Shown: positions 1,926-15,283, counted from the first letter of the stretch. The stretch is DNA of 21,767 nt from a virus (IMGVR_UViG_3300036985_004240:1-21767); one strand, 5' to 3'. A program made the numbers and translations. Notes: generated by a model from the sequence alone, not told the origin.

Positions 1926-2975
1926 TTACCTTCTATTAGCTATTGCAAGAGGAACTGCGTTAGCAAAGCCAGTTGCGGCTGATTGCGTTGCAGATTGTTG
2001 TGGTTGTTGAGGTTGTCCGTACTGACTAGCAACGTAATTAGCGTAAGCATTTCCATCTTGCGATCCGCCTCCACCGCCTGACCTAGCCAGCCGCTCTTGT
2101 TGCTGTCGTCGCAACTTCTCTTGCTGAGCCTCAAACTTACGTTGTTTGTCTGCTTCTGTTGCAGCGAATATCTGTTGCTCAGAACCATACTGACCCTGCA
2201 AGCCAGCAATGTATGACGGTTGAATAGCTTGGAAGTATTCTGCCGGACTCATTGCTGTCTGATATGATTGTTTATAGGCTTGCTCCTGAACACCATAAGC
2301 AGCTTGCTCAGCGGCATTAGCAGCCTCTTGTCGTGCTCTATCTTCTCTATCATTAAGGTCACGCACCATAGCTTGAGCTGCTGGTGAGTTTGGATCTAGT
2401 CCACGCTCTACGATTGCTTGCTGTGTAGATTGACGCTCTCGGCCAAACTGCTCAGCATTGCGTCGCTCAAATTGGGATAGAACATTCTGCCTTGCTTTGT
2501 CCATTTCTGCTGTGAAACCCATCTCATATTTCTGCTGCATTGCGTATGGGTCAAAGTTGCCAAAGTCTTCTGTTATCTTTCCATAAGCCTCACCACCAGC
2601 GCGTACTGGTTGATCTCCAAGGTCTTCCATAGTTGGAGGCGCTGCTTCCGTTGGAGTGCCAGGAGCCGGAGCTTGTGTTGTTGGCTTTGGCGACTTACCT
2701 GGTTTACCTGGTTTACCTGGCTTATCCTTTTTAGGAGGTCGTGCACCAGGAATTGGCTTACCTTGAGAATTAACTAAATCACCTCTGGAATTGCGATAAA
2801 CACCAGGAGAAAGACGCTTTAAATCTTTTGGCTTTTCCTTGGGGTCTTTGGCCATGGAGCCAGGCGGTTTACCAGGCTTGCTGGGCGCTGGTTTGCTAGG
2901 TGCTGGCTTAGTTGGCGCTGGTTTGCTTGGCGGTGGTTTAGCTGAAGATTTTGTTGGTTTAGTTGGTTTTGCCAT
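1926..2975 (-). CDS. Pro/Lys- and Gln-rich virion-cluster protein with LKRLSPGVYR motif
   Basis: A 349-residue protein. Residues 1-100 are Pro/Lys-rich and probably disordered, with tandem PSKPA and KPG repeats. Residues 52-77 hold a conserved-looking block starting LKRLSPGVYR that is also present in the 277-aa protein two genes upstream. Residues 130-300 are strongly helical and Gln/Arg/Glu-rich, followed by five glycines and a Gln/Ala-rich tail. The ATG at 2975 is preferred over a GTG at 2990, because AGGT lies just upstream of the ATG and the 15 extra bases overlap the previous gene. The previous gene ends 2 bases away. The helical part resembles phage ejection proteins; the basic N-terminus could bind DNA or another virion part. 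No function is recognised. Confidence 0.6.
   Translation of the reverse strand: MAKPTKPTKSSAKPPPSKPAPTKPAPSKPAPSKPGKPPGSMAKDPKEKPKDLKRLSPGVYRNSRGDLVNSQGKPIPGARPPKKDKPGKPGKPGKSPKPTTQAPAPGTPTEAAPPTMEDLGDQPVRAGGEAYGKITEDFGNFDPYAMQQKYEMGFTAEMDKARQNVLSQFERRNAEQFGRERQSTQQAIVERGLDPNSPAAQAMVRDLNDREDRARQEAANAAEQAAYGVQEQAYKQSYQTAMSPAEYFQAIQPSYIAGLQGQYGSEQQIFAATEADKQRKFEAQQEKLRRQQQERLARSGGGGGSQDGNAYANYVASQYGQPQQPQQSATQSAATGFANAVPLAIANRR
2694..2723 (-). repeat. KPG tripeptide repeats
   Basis: Three successive copies of a 9-base unit (acctggttt/acctggctt on the plus strand) encode KPGKPGKPGK, residues about 85-94 of the 349-aa protein, just after its LKRLSPGVYR block. Confidence 0.65.
2862..2933 (-). repeat. 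Tandem PSKPA/PTKPA coding repeats
   Basis: Short direct repeats encode SKPAP-TKPAP-SKPAP-SKPG (residues about 15-38 of the 349-aa protein). The repeated DNA unit is visible on the plus strand as variants of ggcgctggtttgct. It makes a flexible, positively charged N-terminal arm and is a likely place for length variation between related phages. Confidence 0.7.
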
Positions 2976-2976
2976 A

Positions 2977-4512
2977 TTATACCTGACCACCCATATCGTA
3001 TCTTATCTCAAATCCTAGTATTTGCATGGTAGCGTTTTTTAGTGAACCACCAAAACGTATTGCTGCACAATGTCCCTGACCTTTAGTAGCAAACCTATCA
3101 AACGTATATTCGATGCCTGATGACCAAGGACTACCCCAAGGACTGCCCCAAGGGGTAAAGGTACTGGTTGGAGATGTCACTGAAGTAATGGCGTATCCTT
3201 GCTTGAAATCAGTATCAAGTCCGATATTTAATGTAACGCCACGACGAGTTTTAAGAATAGGTCGAATGTCTTTAAAGGCTTTGTAGTTAGAGCGTGACCC
3301 GTAGAAGCTAAATGCTCCAGTAGCTGAAAAGGTTATTGCTTGGCTGCTAGTTGCCGTAATTGCATCAGCTTGGCCAGTCTCACCACTCCAAATAATACCT
3401 GTAGAAGAAGCATAGAAAGGGAGCTTATTAAACAAGCAGCTTGATAAAGCGTGTTCGTCTGAATAGAGCTTAAACTTAGTCCATCCCTTTGTATCAATGG
3501 AATATACTAGGAAATAACAACCTGAACCCGATGAAGGTAAAGAGATGTATACTCGTCTACCTTGTGGCCAGAAGAAGCCAGTCCACTCATGGTCAAACCC
3601 TACTTGAGTAGCAAGCTCAGAGATAAGAGGGTTAATACGATAGCTAAGGATGTTTAGGGCTTGCTCTGGATCAGACTGAAACAGGCCAGAAAGAGGAACA
3701 ATACCTTGTTCAGTAATGACCCATATATCGTTGTTTACTCGTACAAACGCTCTATAGCCAAGAGGACGCCCAATGACGTAACGAGCAACTATGCCCCAGG
3801 TAGTAGGGTCTCCAGCGTATACACCGTTGTAAAAGACTATCTCGCCTTCTGAGCTACAAGCCCAAAAGTAATCTTGCGAGGTTGTGCTGGTTGTATTGCT
3901 AAAGCTACCAATGCCAACAAGATATCCGCCTCGTGTAAATACATAGCTAAAGTCAAAGCTAGTAAGAGCAGGAGTGCCACCACTACCAGTGACCTGTAAT
4001 CCACCATACCAAACCTTAGCGGTGTTTTTTTCGACAAAGTACAATCGTTCTTTGTAAGCTGTAACATTGACCAGATTGCTTAGAGTAACGCCAGTAAAAG
4101 TAAGATTAGAAAAAGTAGCAGCAGTCCCATCCCAAACCTGCGCAGTATCTTGACCGTTACAAAGGTAAATCCGGTTATTGTAAATAACCGTCTGCCAATC
4201 ACCCGATGTTGGAACTGTAGGGCCTGTACGATCCGTTACAACACCACCAGTTGTTACAGAGTAAAGTTTGGTATTAGTGCCAGCAATAAGCAGATTAGTT
4301 GCATCTGCTTTGATTAAAGGAGCTGCAAACTTTATAGGAGTTGCACTACCTATATCTGCAAACTGAGTATAGCCAAGACGAACCGTAGGAGCGGCATTGC
4401 CAGGAAACACGTTTACTAAGTCCAGCGCATAAGCTGGATCCATGTTATCAATCGGACTTACTAGGTCCAATCCCCCGTAAGGCGGGGATACTGTGAAACC
4501 TTGAAAAGCCAT
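2977..4512 (-). CDS. Tail nozzle/stabilisation protein, beta-propeller-like (P22 gp10-type candidate)
   Basis: A 511-residue, beta-rich protein. It starts MAFQGFTVSPPYGGLDLVSPIDNM, an opening typical of phage tail proteins that describe themselves as P22 gp10-like stabilisation or nozzle proteins. Repeated aromatic beta-hairpin blades follow (WQTVIYNNRIYLCNG, YKERLYFVEKN, YFWACSSEGEIVFYNG, VRVNNDIWVITEQG), consistent with a propeller. A WGSPWGSPW repeat lies near residues 452-462 before a C-terminal beta domain. In the virion it should form the distal short tail tube that closes the DNA channel. The stop is 2 bases before the next ATG, and the gene follows the adaptor gene by two genes, as expected for the tail module. 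The assignment rests on remembered family features and not on a search. Confidence 0.65.
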   Translation of the reverse strand: MAFQGFTVSPPYGGLDLVSPIDNMDPAYALDLVNVFPGNAAPTVRLGYTQFADIGSATPIKFAAPLIKADATNLLIAGTNTKLYSVTTGGVVTDRTGPTVPTSGDWQTVIYNNRIYLCNGQDTAQVWDGTAATFSNLTFTGVTLSNLVNVTAYKERLYFVEKNTAKVWYGGLQVTGSGGTPALTSFDFSYVFTRGGYLVGIGSFSNTTSTTSQDYFWACSSEGEIVFYNGVYAGDPTTWGIVARYVIGRPLGYRAFVRVNNDIWVITEQGIVPLSGLFQSDPEQALNILSYRINPLISELATQVGFDHEWTGFFWPQGRRVYISLPSSGSGCYFLVYSIDTKGWTKFKLYSDEHALSSCLFNKLPFYASSTGIIWSGETGQADAITATSSQAITFSATGAFSFYGSRSNYKAFKDIRPILKTRRGVTLNIGLDTDFKQGYAITSVTSPTSTFTPWGSPWGSPWSSGIEYTFDRFATKGQGHCAAIRFGGSLKNATMQILGFEIRYDMGGQV

Positions 4513-4514
4513 AA

Positions 4515-5348
4515 TTAGCTTATTGAACCAAACCTATTCGGATTTTGCGCTTTCATTTGTTGTAACTGCTGAACGGTCATTCGCTGGCCCCCAGGTCCAA
4601 TAGCCATACCATTTGGGTCCATATTTTGCGGCTGCCCGTATTGCTGTTGTGGCATCTGTTGCCCCATTTGCATCTGTTTCCACTGCTCAAATGATAACTC
4701 AGGCGTTGGCATATTCATTTGCGGATTCTGCATCATTGGTCGCCGTTGAAAACCTTGCTGCTGCTGAGCCAATGCTTGTTTTTTAGCTAAAGTTGCAGCG
4801 TATTCCTCTGGAGATTGTTGAGCGTATTGCTCCGCAGGTTGAAAATACTCCATTTGCGGCTCCTGCATCATTGGTTGTTGTTGTTGCCCACCTCGCTGCA
4901 AAAGTCCGCTAATAGAATTAGGTCTTTGAGGTTGCTCATACGCAAAACTTCCAGCCCCAGGGGGTGTGCCAAGTGGAGCAGGAGGACGAGTAGCAATTTG
5001 TCCTTGTTGTGGAGCTTGATTCATTGCTTCTACCAAACCACCCTGTCGCGCTCTATCTCGACCATCTCCCATGCCTTGTCCACCAGAAACTATATTAGCA
5101 ACATTACGTGCTCTATCTTTCATGGATGGTTGACCAGGTAATGGTTGCCCTTTAGAGCCTACAAGTTGCCCTGACGAGCTACGGTAAACACCAGGGGAAA
5201 GACGTTTAAGTGGCCCTGGTTTACCTTGAGCGACGCCATTAGCCATACTTGGCCCACCTGGTTTTAGGCCACGCAAACGATCCTTTTCAGATTGAGGAAC
5301 AGCAATGCTTACTGTTGGGTCTTTTTTCATTGCGGTTTTTCTTGCCAT
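4515..5348 (-). CDS. Gln/Met/Pro-rich virion-cluster protein with LKRLSPGVYR motif
   Basis: A 277-residue protein. It has a basic N-terminus, a conserved-looking block at residues 47-72 (LKRLSPGVYR then GQLVGSKGQPLPG), and from about residue 100 onward a low-complexity region dominated by Gln, Met and Pro (QQQPMMQEPQM, QMQMGQQMPQQQ). The block is shared with the 349-aa protein at 1926-2975. The start ATG at 5348 has TAGGTA just upstream. It lies between the 386-aa probable ejection protein (5-base gap) and the nozzle candidate (2-base gap). No enzyme motif is seen; it is probably a virion or assembly protein whose shared block docks to a common partner. The function is unknown. Confidence 0.55.
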   Translation of the reverse strand: MARKTAMKKDPTVSIAVPQSEKDRLRGLKPGGPSMANGVAQGKPGPLKRLSPGVYRSSSGQLVGSKGQPLPGQPSMKDRARNVANIVSGGQGMGDGRDRARQGGLVEAMNQAPQQGQIATRPPAPLGTPPGAGSFAYEQPQRPNSISGLLQRGGQQQQPMMQEPQMEYFQPAEQYAQQSPEEYAATLAKKQALAQQQQGFQRRPMMQNPQMNMPTPELSFEQWKQMQMGQQMPQQQYGQPQNMDPNGMAIGPGGQRMTVQQLQQMKAQNPNRFGSIS

Positions 5349-5353
5349 ATTAC

Positions 5354-6514
5354 CTACTTTTTACCCATGTTTGATTTGAGTATGTCACGAATGGATTTAC
5401 TTTCTTTTTTACCTTCTGGAACTGATACTTGTGGCTTATTAACTACGGGTGCCGTCTGTCGAGTGTTGGAAGGAGGAGGCAAATTTACACCAGCTTTCTT
5501 TGCAAACTCTGAACGACTTAGCATTGCATTTATGTTGGCTTTTACTTCTTCTTCAGTTTTAGCATTAGAAGTAGCGGCATTGACCAACATTCCTGTGTAC
5601 TGCTCAGGCTTAATCTTGCCATCTACATCTTTGTAGATATTACGAATCATTGGGTCGATTTGTTGAACTGCAAATTGAGCGAGAGGATTAGAGAAGTCTA
5701 CATCCCAAGCCTGACGAGTTTTCTTTTTATCAATATTCTCGCCGACGTTTTGCAACTTAGTTTTACCGTCTAAGCCAATATTGTACTGAGAACCATCAGC
5801 AAGAGTGACGTTATATGTATCGTTAGCAACGCCTGTTTGCTTTAGGAGGCCACGAAAATCATCGCGCATTGCTTGAGCATCTGATTTTCCAGAAGTCATC
5901 ATTTTACCAACGGAACGCTTACCAAGCAGTCTTAATCCAATATTTAGAGGAGCAGTATACGGATTCATATTGATTGCTTGATTTGCGTAATCAGCGCGGT
6001 TACCTCGTCCACGCACAATATCTTTCATTCCGCTTTCCCAGATATTGTTCAACATCAATGCGCTTACGGCTGCTGGCAATGCAACGGAACCTACCGAGCC
6101 AAGAGTCGAACCTGGTGCCGTAGGTGCAAGTGGTGCAGTAGTCTGCGCTCCAAGAAGTGGAGGAGTGGCTACAGTTGATCCAGCAGTGCCACCTACTGTT
6201 TGCGCTCCAAGGAGAGTAGGAGTTGTTACCGCACCAGTGCTAGCGCCAGATCCAAACAATCCACTCAAAGCAGGAAAGCCTTGCAAAGCCTGTTGAGTAA
6301 CAAGTAAGCCACCGATAGTTCCAGCAGTTTGAGCTAGTGCATTATTTTGAGCTTGTCCAGCTTGCTCTCGTGCTCTTTGGTCTGGTGTTTTTGGTGGCCC
6401 AAATCTTTGTTCAACCATTTGCACAGCTTGCATTGCTGGCATACGTTGACTCAGCAAATAAAGGTAATAAGCTCGTGGGTCTTGCTGTGTAATTGCTGGT
6501 TCTTGTCCGTTCAT
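5354..6514 (-). CDS. Probable internal virion/ejection protein, 386 aa
   Basis: A 386-residue protein. The N-terminus is helical (YYLYLLSQRMPAMQAVQMVEQRFGPP). Residues 60-155 are hydrophobic and rich in Ala, Gly and Thr, including a duplicated TPxLLGAQT unit at about 98-106 and 117-125 and a membrane-like stretch at 140-155. The C-terminal half is polar and charged, ending with a Lys-rich tail (SNMGKK). Its place directly after the adaptor gene is where P22-like and other podoviruses encode proteins that are injected with the DNA. The gene begins 2 bases after the adaptor stop, so translational coupling is likely. It could instead be a tail-needle or chaperone-like protein, but no coiled-coil needle pattern is seen. 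Confidence 0.55.
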   Translation of the reverse strand: MNGQEPAITQQDPRAYYLYLLSQRMPAMQAVQMVEQRFGPPKTPDQRAREQAGQAQNNALAQTAGTIGGLLVTQQALQGFPALSGLFGSGASTGAVTTPTLLGAQTVGGTAGSTVATPPLLGAQTTAPLAPTAPGSTLGSVGSVALPAAVSALMLNNIWESGMKDIVRGRGNRADYANQAINMNPYTAPLNIGLRLLGKRSVGKMMTSGKSDAQAMRDDFRGLLKQTGVANDTYNVTLADGSQYNIGLDGKTKLQNVGENIDKKKTRQAWDVDFSNPLAQFAVQQIDPMIRNIYKDVDGKIKPEQYTGMLVNAATSNAKTEEEVKANINAMLSRSEFAKKAGVNLPPPSNTRQTAPVVNKPQVSVPEGKKESKSIRDILKSNMGKK

Positions 6515-6516
6515 AG

Positions 6517-7380
6517 TTATATCCAGGTACCAAACACTGCTACGCCATTTCTAGCAAACATCGGGTCTCGCATGTGTCCTCCAGCGTAGAGAACTTTACC
6601 GTTTTGGTCCCGACTAAATTCTTCATTAAGCTGCACGTCAAATCTTGGCCGTATGCTGTCTAATCCGTGAATCTCTGCAAACCGTTCTAGTATACCTTGC
6701 TCAAGTAACTTTTCTTGGAAAACGCTACGGTCTGTATTGGCTAAGAACTCATTGTAAGGACCGTTGTAGTAGGCCCATGTGACACCACCATCGGATACGC
6801 TTCCGCTTGTGTGCGTGGGCGCTGTGGCTCCTGTAGTCCCACCAGCAGTGGTTTGATAGTAGTTGCCGTTATAGAAGCAATAAGAGTTAGCAGCAAACGC
6901 TGTAGAGGCAGTCCAGGTAACAGGACGTACAGAACGATCTGCAATGTACTCAAAGATAATGATGTCGCCGCTATAGGTAGCACCTGGGGTTGGTGAGATA
7001 AGCAGCTCAGAGTTAGTAATGCCTCTGATTTGGAATCTTTGATAAACGGCTGTGTTGAGTCCAAAACCCTGGATCTCCGCAAACTCTTGCTCAGTCATTG
7101 GACCAAGGACTCTCCAACGAGTGCTTTGATTCCAAAAGGTTTCGTAGTGATAATAAGAAAAAGCCGCTGGTAGTTGATAAGTTGCCTGACCTCCTACCAG
7201 CGTTATTGAACCAGAAGCGTAGCACTTGGGCCATGGATACGCTTCAAAGATGTCACGGTTGATTCTATTAGCAATGGCGAGGAGCTGCTTAGTTGTAACT
7301 TCATTGGAGGCGAGAATATTAGTCTCGACTGTATAGCCAGCTTCGTTTGCTACGTTTTGAATAACCGTTGAAATCGTCAT
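6517..7380 (-). CDS. Head-to-tail adaptor (tail tubular protein A / gp4-like) with inserted surface domain
   Basis: A 287-residue protein whose N-terminal half (MTISTVIQNVANEAGY, then LLAIANRINRDIFEAYPW and YQLPAAF) and C-terminal half (EFLANTDRSVFQEKLLEQGILERFAEIHGL) match the pattern of podovirus adaptor proteins that form the dodecameric ring under the portal. Between them, residues about 156-205 form a separate aromatic, Gly/Thr-rich unit (SYCFYNGNYYQTTAGGTTG, APTHTSG, SDGGVTWAYY) that resembles the small carbohydrate-binding-like modules often found in phage tail proteins. The ATG overlaps the stop of the upstream AT-hook gene by 4 bases, implying coupled translation. The adaptor call is fairly secure from fold pattern and context; the insert's binding role is inference. 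Confidence 0.65.
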   Translation of the reverse strand: MTISTVIQNVANEAGYTVETNILASNEVTTKQLLAIANRINRDIFEAYPWPKCYASGSITLVGGQATYQLPAAFSYYHYETFWNQSTRWRVLGPMTEQEFAEIQGFGLNTAVYQRFQIRGITNSELLISPTPGATYSGDIIIFEYIADRSVRPVTWTASTAFAANSYCFYNGNYYQTTAGGTTGATAPTHTSGSVSDGGVTWAYYNGPYNEFLANTDRSVFQEKLLEQGILERFAEIHGLDSIRPRFDVQLNEEFSRDQNGKVLYAGGHMRDPMFARNGVAVFGTWI

Positions 7381-13628: not shown

Positions 13629-15035
13629 TTACACGCTTGTTACTGTTTCCCAACCTGTTGCTCCACCGATTCGCAGTTTATTTAGTGTAGTATCAAAATA
13701 CATCCCGCCTAATACATAAGCTGGTGCACCCGCTGTTGTTGCTTGTACTGGAAAGAATACAAAATTTTGATTTATTTTCATTCTTGTCGATCCGGCACTA
13801 TCTCTCCATTCCATTAAATTTACAGCCGATGCGGAAGCAGATCGAAAAATAGCGCCAATGGTTACATCGCTTAAAGCTGTGACATCTAGCATAGCTGCTG
13901 GTGATACAGCACCAATACCAACTCTTGTTGCGTTTGTTGCGTTAGCACTGCGGATAATAATGTTTGCGCCAATATTCTCAATCGATGGGAATGACGCAGT
14001 AGTGCCACCAAATTGAATTTTAACCGGACCTGTAAGCGATTCATTTCGGATTAAAAAATCGCCAGACGTACCGCTTGAAGCCAAATTCCATCGCTGTCCG
14101 TTAACAATACTAGCCGCAGCCGAACCACCAACACCGCCTGTAAAAGATCCCGAAGAAGTAATTCCATTTACGTTAATTCGCGCTCTTTCAGTACCTCCGC
14201 ATGTAAACGTAATATCAGTAGACCCGCTAGACGGCGTCCCCATGCCTGTCGTTGTCGCGTTTCTAAATGCGTAAACTGGCAACGTAGCAGTCGACACGGA
14301 ATTGATAATTGCAAAGCTACCGTTATTTATTCCTTGAATGTTTGAGCCTGCTGTCATAATAAGACCTGGGCCAGAGGTCATTGAGAAAGTAACAGGCGAG
14401 CCAGAACTAACAATGCTACTGGCAAGAGATAAAACCGTTGCGGTTGATGCGCTTAGCACAGTCAGCTTGTGTGTGCCTGTTGTGCCGCCAACAAGTAAAT
14501 TACCACCACCAACTCCTATTTGAATATTGCCAGTCGCTGCATTATTTAAAAGCAGAGGAGAGCCATTGATCCGAAGCTCTTGATAAACGTTATATGCATC
14601 ATTAATACTTGCTATCTCAGGTGACCCATTAGTGCCAACCATGATAAAGTTTTTATCGGTATTTGTATTAATTGAAAATTTAGCATTGTTTAAAACCGTT
14701 CCACTTGTCGCAATGCCGACATTACCGTTTGCGTTAAGAAGCACCCTAGATGTGCCAGCCGTTGTTAATCCAAGAATATTAGTACCGGCTATATAAACAC
14801 CAGTGTCGGTATCAGTAACAAAAGAATGAGAGGGAGCAGCCGCTGTACCACCTGTTGTTAATATATTGCCTAGCAGTGACAAGGTGTCTGTTGTCTTGTC
14901 GTATGTCATTCCAGCGTCACCACCGAATGAGCCAGAATCATTAAACTGAACCTGCCCAGTACTTCCACCAGGTGAAGAAGCAGCATCAGAAACAACGTCA
15001 AATGTACCTGTGAATGGATTAAAAACGTAAGCCAC
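13629..15035 (-). CDS. Tail fibre-like protein, 468 aa
   Basis: A 468-residue Gly/Ser/Thr/Ala/Asn-rich beta protein. The N-terminus (MAYVFNPFTGTFDVV) is short and probably anchors to the virion. The next part (GSTGQVQFNDSGSFGGDAGM, TYDKTTDTLSLLG) is a repeat unit common in phage fibres, followed by many TTAGTSRV/NGNVGI-like units. The last 30 residues (YVLGGMYFDTTLNKLRIGGATGWETV) look like a terminal tip domain. There is no peptidase S74 chaperone motif (no C-terminal catalytic Ser-Lys pair seen). It likely trimerises and binds the host. The start overlaps the 82-aa gene by one base. Its place between portal and scaffold is unusual. Confidence 0.7.
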   Translation of the reverse strand: MAYVFNPFTGTFDVVSDAASSPGGSTGQVQFNDSGSFGGDAGMTYDKTTDTLSLLGNILTTGGTAAAPSHSFVTDTDTGVYIAGTNILGLTTAGTSRVLLNANGNVGIATSGTVLNNAKFSINTNTDKNFIMVGTNGSPEIASINDAYNVYQELRINGSPLLLNNAATGNIQIGVGGGNLLVGGTTGTHKLTVLSASTATVLSLASSIVSSGSPVTFSMTSGPGLIMTAGSNIQGINNGSFAIINSVSTATLPVYAFRNATTTGMGTPSSGSTDITFTCGGTERARINVNGITSSGSFTGGVGGSAAASIVNGQRWNLASSGTSGDFLIRNESLTGPVKIQFGGTTASFPSIENIGANIIIRSANATNATRVGIGAVSPAAMLDVTALSDVTIGAIFRSASASAVNLMEWRDSAGSTRMKINQNFVFFPVQATTAGAPAYVLGGMYFDTTLNKLRIGGATGWETVTSV

Positions 15036-15283
15036 TATGACCTCACTACCGAATCAAGTTGGCTGCCAGTATAGGAAAGAGTAAGAGTCGCTACTGTTGC
15101 TCCAGCTAATTTGTAAACAACTGAAGTTAGATTGCTTCCAGTATATGCAAGTTCAATTTGATCGTATGGTTGATTAACAAGGCCCTGCACTATCTCTTGA
15201 TATACGTTGCCGCTACGAACAACTGTAGCGACAGGAATGTCAGGATTAACTGATGCTGCTGAGTTGGATACTGTTGTAGCCAT
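15035..15283 (-). CDS. Small beta-repeat protein, 82 aa
   Basis: An 82-residue protein with an internal duplication: LAYTGSNLTSVVYK (about 45-58) and LSYTGSQLDSVVRS (about 69-82), joined by a beta strand. The Y-T-G-S-x-L-x-S-V-V unit resembles a short beta-hairpin repeat, similar in style to YD/Rhs-type repeats. It is coupled to both neighbours by single-base stop/start overlaps (portal upstream, fibre downstream). It could be a fibre adaptor or portal-associated protein. The function is unknown. Confidence 0.55.
   Translation of the reverse strand: MATTVSNSAASVNPDIPVATVVRSGNVYQEIVQGLVNQPYDQIELAYTGSNLTSVVYKLAGATVATLTLSYTGSQLDSVVRS

Follow-up and report, generated by a model that had tools for sequence, protein, structure and literature searches.

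In the mature virion of phage T7, gp7.3 and gp6.7 show order only in short loops, which are bound at the adaptor-nozzle junction and around the portal (PMC11784390). gp7.3 is small and mostly unresolved; its ordered part is a short peptide present in six copies at the adaptor-nozzle junction, and it has been proposed to be a nozzle assembly scaffold (PMC11784390). That a disordered virion protein may be anchored by a short ordered piece is, as a general idea, already known from T7. Here we consider a possible parallel in a fragment of an uncultured phage (IMGVR_UViG_3300036985_004240:1-21767; 21,767 nucleotides, or 21.8 kb, the whole of which is called the window below). Two genes around its nozzle gene encode u277 (the 277-aa protein and its family) and ND354 (the 349-aa family), and both proteins contain a block of about 26 residues that begins LKRLSPGVYR. 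The reading favoured here, with a probability of roughly 0.5, is that the block, as a portable micro-domain, serves to dock virion proteins that are disordered or mosaic onto one common partner in the portal-adaptor-nozzle region of a short-tailed phage.

The likeness to gp7.3 is that of a mostly disordered protein with a short ordered segment. However, in gp7.3 this segment is a C-terminal loop of ~15 residues in one protein, whereas here it is a predicted folded unit in up to three proteins. Sequence kinship is unsupported. With gp6.7 no shared motif is seen, and its gene neighbourhood is another one. Another comparison is with the P22-like podophages Mx8, phiGT1, BUCT555 and ppBjS10J-1, which have related portal, capsid, adaptor and nozzle proteins. 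Portal, major capsid, SU10-type adaptor and nozzle homologues occur in the window in the order of a P22-like podophage head-tail cassette (PHROGs 12082, 9953, 6013/PF24175 and 5107/3287). In the cultured relatives, however, the adaptor gene stands directly before the nozzle gene, without e386 (the 386-aa family), u277 or the block. The genes e386 and u277 separate adaptor from nozzle in the window and its relatives, and the direct order, which is not a formal criterion of such a cassette, is not seen there.

The block in the window and its relatives

The two copies lie on the minus strand, exactly where the sequence-only reading had placed them in the 277-aa and 349-aa proteins (Table 1), and the common DNA stretch it described is there, both copies reading CGTCTTTC(C/T)CCTGGTGTTTA. 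A tblastn search of the window with one block recovers the other at E 1.2e-10. Local alignment of u277 with ND354 scores 131, and the maximum among 1000 shuffles preserving local composition is 110. The similarity is therefore beyond chance. The surroundings had been called low-complexity. This holds only in part, since the 349-aa protein has a conserved second half that belongs to PHROG 6121 ('virion structural protein'), a family matched by ND354 of 13 of 41 relatives. The block shared by two proteins is thus real, but the original claim understates it, since relatives hold two further sites and the window proteins share a second N-terminal motif.

A search of IMG/VR with the nozzle gene yielded 80 relatives. 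Four sites were defined among them and counted in 72 distinct cassettes with a strict pattern, the core being R-h-SPG-h-Y. Site A lies ~30-42 residues before the C-terminus of e386 (GQVVRVSPGMYVNDKGxVxPAKTVREALxxNY), site B in the N-part of u277, site C in the C-part of u277 (GGQYRLSPGVYGTREQAMQQ) and site D in the N-part of ND354. The core occurs one to three times in 70 of the 72 cassettes and is confined to these three nozzle-flanking genes, which answers the check proposed in the sequence-only reading, namely whether one to several copies lie around the nozzle gene. Zero strict-pattern copies are found in the nozzle, adaptor and d431 (431-aa gene) proteins of the same 72 cassettes. By copies in (site A, u277, site D), the cassettes fall into (0,1,0) with 20, (1,2,0) with 14, (1,1,0) with 13, (0,1,1) with 10, (0,2,0) with 7, (1,1,1) with 6 and (0,0,0) with 2. 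A looser count, which allows S-A-G and like variants at site A and draws on a somewhat different 72 rows, each with a distinct nozzle, gives ABC 21, AB 14, B plus 'w' at D 10, BD 9, B 8, ABD 6, AC 2 and 'w' alone 2, where 'w' is a different, hairpin-like element at the D slot. No single site is universal; nonetheless nearly every genome has a copy somewhere. Sites C and D are never together in one genome. Loss of the block from one of the two genes without consequence, which the sequence-only reading had named as a result that would speak against it, is seen for site D. Of 72 relatives, 56 have no block there, so the D copy is optional. Many ND354 proteins lacking site D (L020-L055, L013, L030, L031) carry KRGNWxxxxxWVxxEGxxVDxYGKxIPG in the D slot, and the second half of this element (G.LV...GK.IPG) resembles the block.

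A search with the block profile and the pattern SPG.Y gave 148 matches in plus-strand open reading frames (ORFs) of at least 100 aa (260,566 aa) and 2 in minus-strand frames (424,098 aa). Is the block tied to tail-region genes when the nozzle is left out of the search? A scan of 2.9 million IMG/VR viral contigs by pattern only, using degenerate DNA of RLSPGVYR[GNS], gave 118 confirmed loci, 80 of which were kept and 68 of these new. In all 68 new loci the block is flanked by cassette genes (adaptor, e386, nozzle or d431), and the carrier is u277, ND354 or both. Scans with A-, C- and RVSPG-type modules added 161 loci, many on known contigs, 157 of them with cassette genes. Twenty long records (27-38 kb) hold 38 core matches, and the sizes of the open frames, from which we assigned the carriers ourselves, fit e386, u277 and ND354. 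In such scans of IMG/VR the block is almost exclusively a cassette element; it occurs otherwise in divergent podophages whose gene types are similar and in the J protein of a siphophage. A search of 257 Gb of bacterial and archaeal genomes gave 21 matches to the block pattern and 7 to the nozzle. None is a true relative, so no host or prophage was found.

Predicted fold, history and wider occurrence

AlphaFold2 predicts u277 of the window, modelled with 46 relatives, to be largely disordered apart from a single short ordered segment, which is the gp7.3-type trait. The mean predicted local distance difference test score (pLDDT) is 58, residues 51-70 reach 92-93 and the rest is mostly below 60. 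For the e386 of L073 with 34 relatives, strands are predicted at 366-369, 372-374 and 380-382 and a helix at 386-402, with pLDDT about 80-88. In these models, two otherwise different carriers give the same order of strand, PG turn, strand, (strand) and helix.

The micro-domain is probably undescribed, and the block falls in no sequence family of Pfam, PHROGs or the PDB. Even at E up to 1, u277 matches nothing in PHROGs or Pfam. A tblastn search of 50,697 phage records with the block gave only Erwinia phage matches at E about 4 and above, and the block was not found in the cultured phages of that collection. The core strings SPGVYR, PGVYRN and LSPGVY were not met in the literature searched. Several candidates were rejected: a mitochondrial ribosomal protein, the best PDB match of the block profile (E 0.88); ribosomal proteins and T4 lysozyme, which Foldseek returned for the u277 model (best E 2.0) and which were put down to chance; and an AP2-like DNA-binding domain, considered for its strand-strand-helix likeness and dropped, Pfam having no match. 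VIA-align of the u277 model gave no match at Z 2 or more, a domain of this size being too small for either fold search to exclude kinship. Fold searches with the e386 model gave scattered matches with Z below 4 and were of no use.

Sixty-eight of 68 B blocks keep R, S, P, G, Y and R invariant, and each of these residues is written with 2-6 codons (six for the first R). Invariant residues with varying codons indicate that selection acts on the protein. The idea that the block was copied between the genes is unsupported at the DNA level. The same codon is used at residues shared by B and D in 37% of cases within a genome and 34% between genomes; recent copying or gene conversion was rejected on this ground. 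Site D also occurs in several distant, very divergent lineages, which makes a recent copy in the window's lineage unlikely. A maximum-likelihood tree of the nozzle (72 rows) puts D at four separate points and does not distinguish gains from losses. The pN/pS of block versus rest in close pairs is mixed, pN of the block being higher for window-L005 and lower for window-L012, and is not used as evidence. Perhaps this is due to recombination of the block between phages.

Among the exceptions, L313 and L323 are divergent podophages with the block in an ORF of 155-186 aa. L313 has a P22 gp10-type head-closure gene (PHROG 578) upstream. Two genes downstream of the block, an ORF has GAVxEHHGTID in common with the e386 of L125, and the next ORF has ND354-like features, a start YNYVSPGLYRSPTGQVVRRSQMNKAL and a second, looser repeat NAGKGFYRGADGNLISG. 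L329-L334 have an adaptor-like ORF of 654-679 aa, much larger than that of the window, and a divergent nozzle; here the block opens the gene immediately after the nozzle (YTRVSPGLYRDTSGNLV). The siphophage contigs L316 and L318 have a tape-measure gene followed by two small tail genes and the gene of a J protein of 1221 aa (PHROG 31, E 1.5e-68), the N-terminus of which reads TRVSPGVYRDATGNLLYIPN.

The carriers and their gene cassette

Sister phages with nozzles 99-100% identical (L073/L080, L074/L075, L070/L066, L090/L071) have an e386 of either 401-422 or 527-553 aa. The N-termini are near-identical and the bodies have 37-44% aligned identity, with both forms ending in site A. e386 appears to be ejection-like and mosaic, with either of two interchangeable bodies, its middle having been exchanged between sister phages. 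In the window and 'w' clades 0 of 20 have site A; elsewhere the count is 41 of 49, and each group includes both body types (the script scored a few short e386 proteins as long, which leaves the result by clade unchanged). Because site A tracks the clade in both body types, the presence of the tag goes with the remainder of the phage and not with the body attached to it. Long e386 bodies contain Gly-zipper segments, with scores below Pfam cut-offs, and have weak matches to lysin and internal virion protein families, which suggests that e386 is an ejection-type protein. The e386 of the window, which has no site A, retains a C-terminal SIRDIL segment at 5357-5398(-), like the helix after site A (TVREAL) of relatives.

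u277 and ND354 also share the second motif, an N-terminal element K-G/T/S-A-M/L-x-x-x-P. Its strict form is found in 42 of 68 u277 and 60 of 68 ND354 proteins; by eye, a looser form fits most of those left. In some genomes motif and block are adjacent, for example LKGALAREPKMTRLSPGVYRGEKGQL (u277 of L052) and MATALKKEPQQYTRVSPGIYRDSSGKLV (ND354 of L137). The two look like one bipartite N-terminal module that has been pulled apart in the window.

Gene order in the window is read on the minus strand: terminase large subunit, portal, tail-fibre-like genes, a gene called scaffold-like from position and size only, major capsid protein, small genes, a 237-aa gene, adaptor, e386, u277, nozzle, ND354, d431 and a gene truncated at the fragment end. 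The ND354 ORF extends to 2990 with a GTG start. The nozzle also matches proteins annotated as tubular tail B or stabilization proteins. Its family is labelled 'amidase' in PHROG 5107 and several RefSeq phage records, while homologues are annotated as tail tube or stabilization proteins; the label is probably a misannotation that has spread. Residues ~154-205 of the adaptor form an inserted segment resembling repeats of tail fibre families (PHROGs 19864 and 5342). The tail-fibre-like genes lie at 13629-15283(-), between the portal and the scaffold/capsid genes, an uncommon location.

Table 1. Features discussed in the text (window coordinates unless a contig is named)
Feature	Position	Strand	Remarks
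Site B block, LKRLSPGVYRSSSGQLVGSKGQPLPG	5133..5210	-	residues 47-72 of u277; u277 ATG at 5348
Site D block, LKRLSPGVYRNSRGDLVNSQGKPIPG	2745..2822	-	residues 52-77 of ND354; ND354 ATG at 2975
Site B micro-domain (predicted)	5088..5213	-	residues 46-87; strands 48-51, 54-56, 62-63; helix 76-87 (AlphaFold2)
RKTAMKKDP, N-terminal motif of u277	5316..5342	-	common to the 349-aa family
GSMAKDP in ND354	2841..2861	-	counterpart of KTAMKKDP; aligned columns nearly invariant
u277, 277 aa, Gln/Met-rich, mostly disordered	4515..5348	-	disorder predicted by AlphaFold2; immediately precedes nozzle gene
ND354, 349 aa	1926..2975	-	disordered N-part and conserved virion-protein part; PHROG 6121 in relatives
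Nozzle gene, P22 gp10-like	2977..4512	-	between both block genes, without block; PHROG 5107 and 3287
e386, 386-aa protein	5354..6514	-	C-terminal site A of other clades absent in window
Adaptor gene, SU10-type	6517..7380	-	conserved cassette start; Pfam PF24175 E 7.9e-8, PHROG 6013
d431, 431 aa	627..1922	-	last gene of cassette, without block
J-type gene with N-terminal block	L316:4681-8346		outside podophage cassettes; also L318, L326, L327

What the block may do

The proposed attachment tag would work as follows. A micro-domain of ~25-40 residues may form a strand, a PG turn, a strand and a short strand, usually then a helix, with the block as its folded core. A ring would present several equivalent pockets, by analogy with T7 gp7.3 and gp6.7, and the tags of u277, of the ejection-like e386 family and of the ND354 family could fill them, with the long flexible tails hanging in or near the channel until ejection. 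The presence of the carriers in the virion, the docking by the tag and a neck or tail ring protein as the partner are all inferred. This is the best reading because the block is conserved amid variable surroundings, is present once or more in 70 of 72 genomes, sits in three neighbouring tail-region genes and is retained through the body swap. Of the earlier proposal of docking to a common virion partner, the one to three copies in nozzle-flanking genes are observed; the docking and the partner are presumed. Several observations weigh against it. The placing of the carriers in the virion comes from gene order and family names only, and confidence in the site A model is moderate (pLDDT about 80). 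L030 and L031 keep the cassette and miss every copy, so the tag is not strictly essential. In addition, the siphophage has a related block in its J protein and a particle with no adaptor-nozzle tail, so that the partner is not nozzle-specific in all cases.

What if the micro-domains bind each other? The three carriers would then co-assemble as a ring or plug, which fits the sharing of the unit by all three, the several copies per cassette and the presence of B and C in one protein in 21 of 72 genomes. However, the strict core occurs only once in 20 of 72 genomes (18 of 72 in the looser count, with or without 'w'), and C and D never co-occur. Even one copy per genome might nonetheless form a homo-oligomer. 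Such homotypic assembly is unlikely, although it is the next most likely explanation after docking. Charge offers another clue. A mean net charge of +3.5 at B and +3.3 at D, the invariant arginines and the Lys-rich flanks in the 349-aa protein would suit binding to the packaged DNA end or to channel DNA, like the lysines of T7 gp7.3. Nevertheless, site C is near-neutral (+0.8) and site A only +2.5, and both retain the RhSPGhY core; the conserved feature is therefore not charge, and DNA binding is quite improbable.

A target on the host side, such as a cell-wall or periplasmic protein met during ejection, seems more doubtful again. Carriers do include an ejection-like protein with Gly-zipper segments and the tail-tip J protein of the siphophage, but no finding names an envelope component of this kind, the block lies within disordered proteins encoded beside the nozzle, and the bacterial genomes have no copy. 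The remaining proposal, also made by the sequence-only reading, is a signal for cleavage or processing. Processing sites are often short conserved blocks in disordered surroundings, as this one is. However, it is predicted to be folded, its sites are N-terminal, internal and C-terminal, and no protease family is found among the scanned window proteins, all of which makes processing very improbable indeed.

Docking by an attachment tag may also reach further than the cassette. One tentative extension, which we consider somewhat unlikely, is that an undescribed strand-turn-strand-helix family (R-h-SPG-h-Y) serves as a portable address tag for tail-region proteins across unrelated particle types, namely several podophage lineages and the N-terminus of a siphophage J protein. 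In short-tailed phages, virion proteins that are disordered are difficult to assign, since only small parts of them are ordered. If the attachment-tag reading is true, a recognisable tag would let proteins of the tail and ejection apparatus be found by sequence in uncultured phages, and it would provide a defined piece of 25-40 residues with which partners can be tested.

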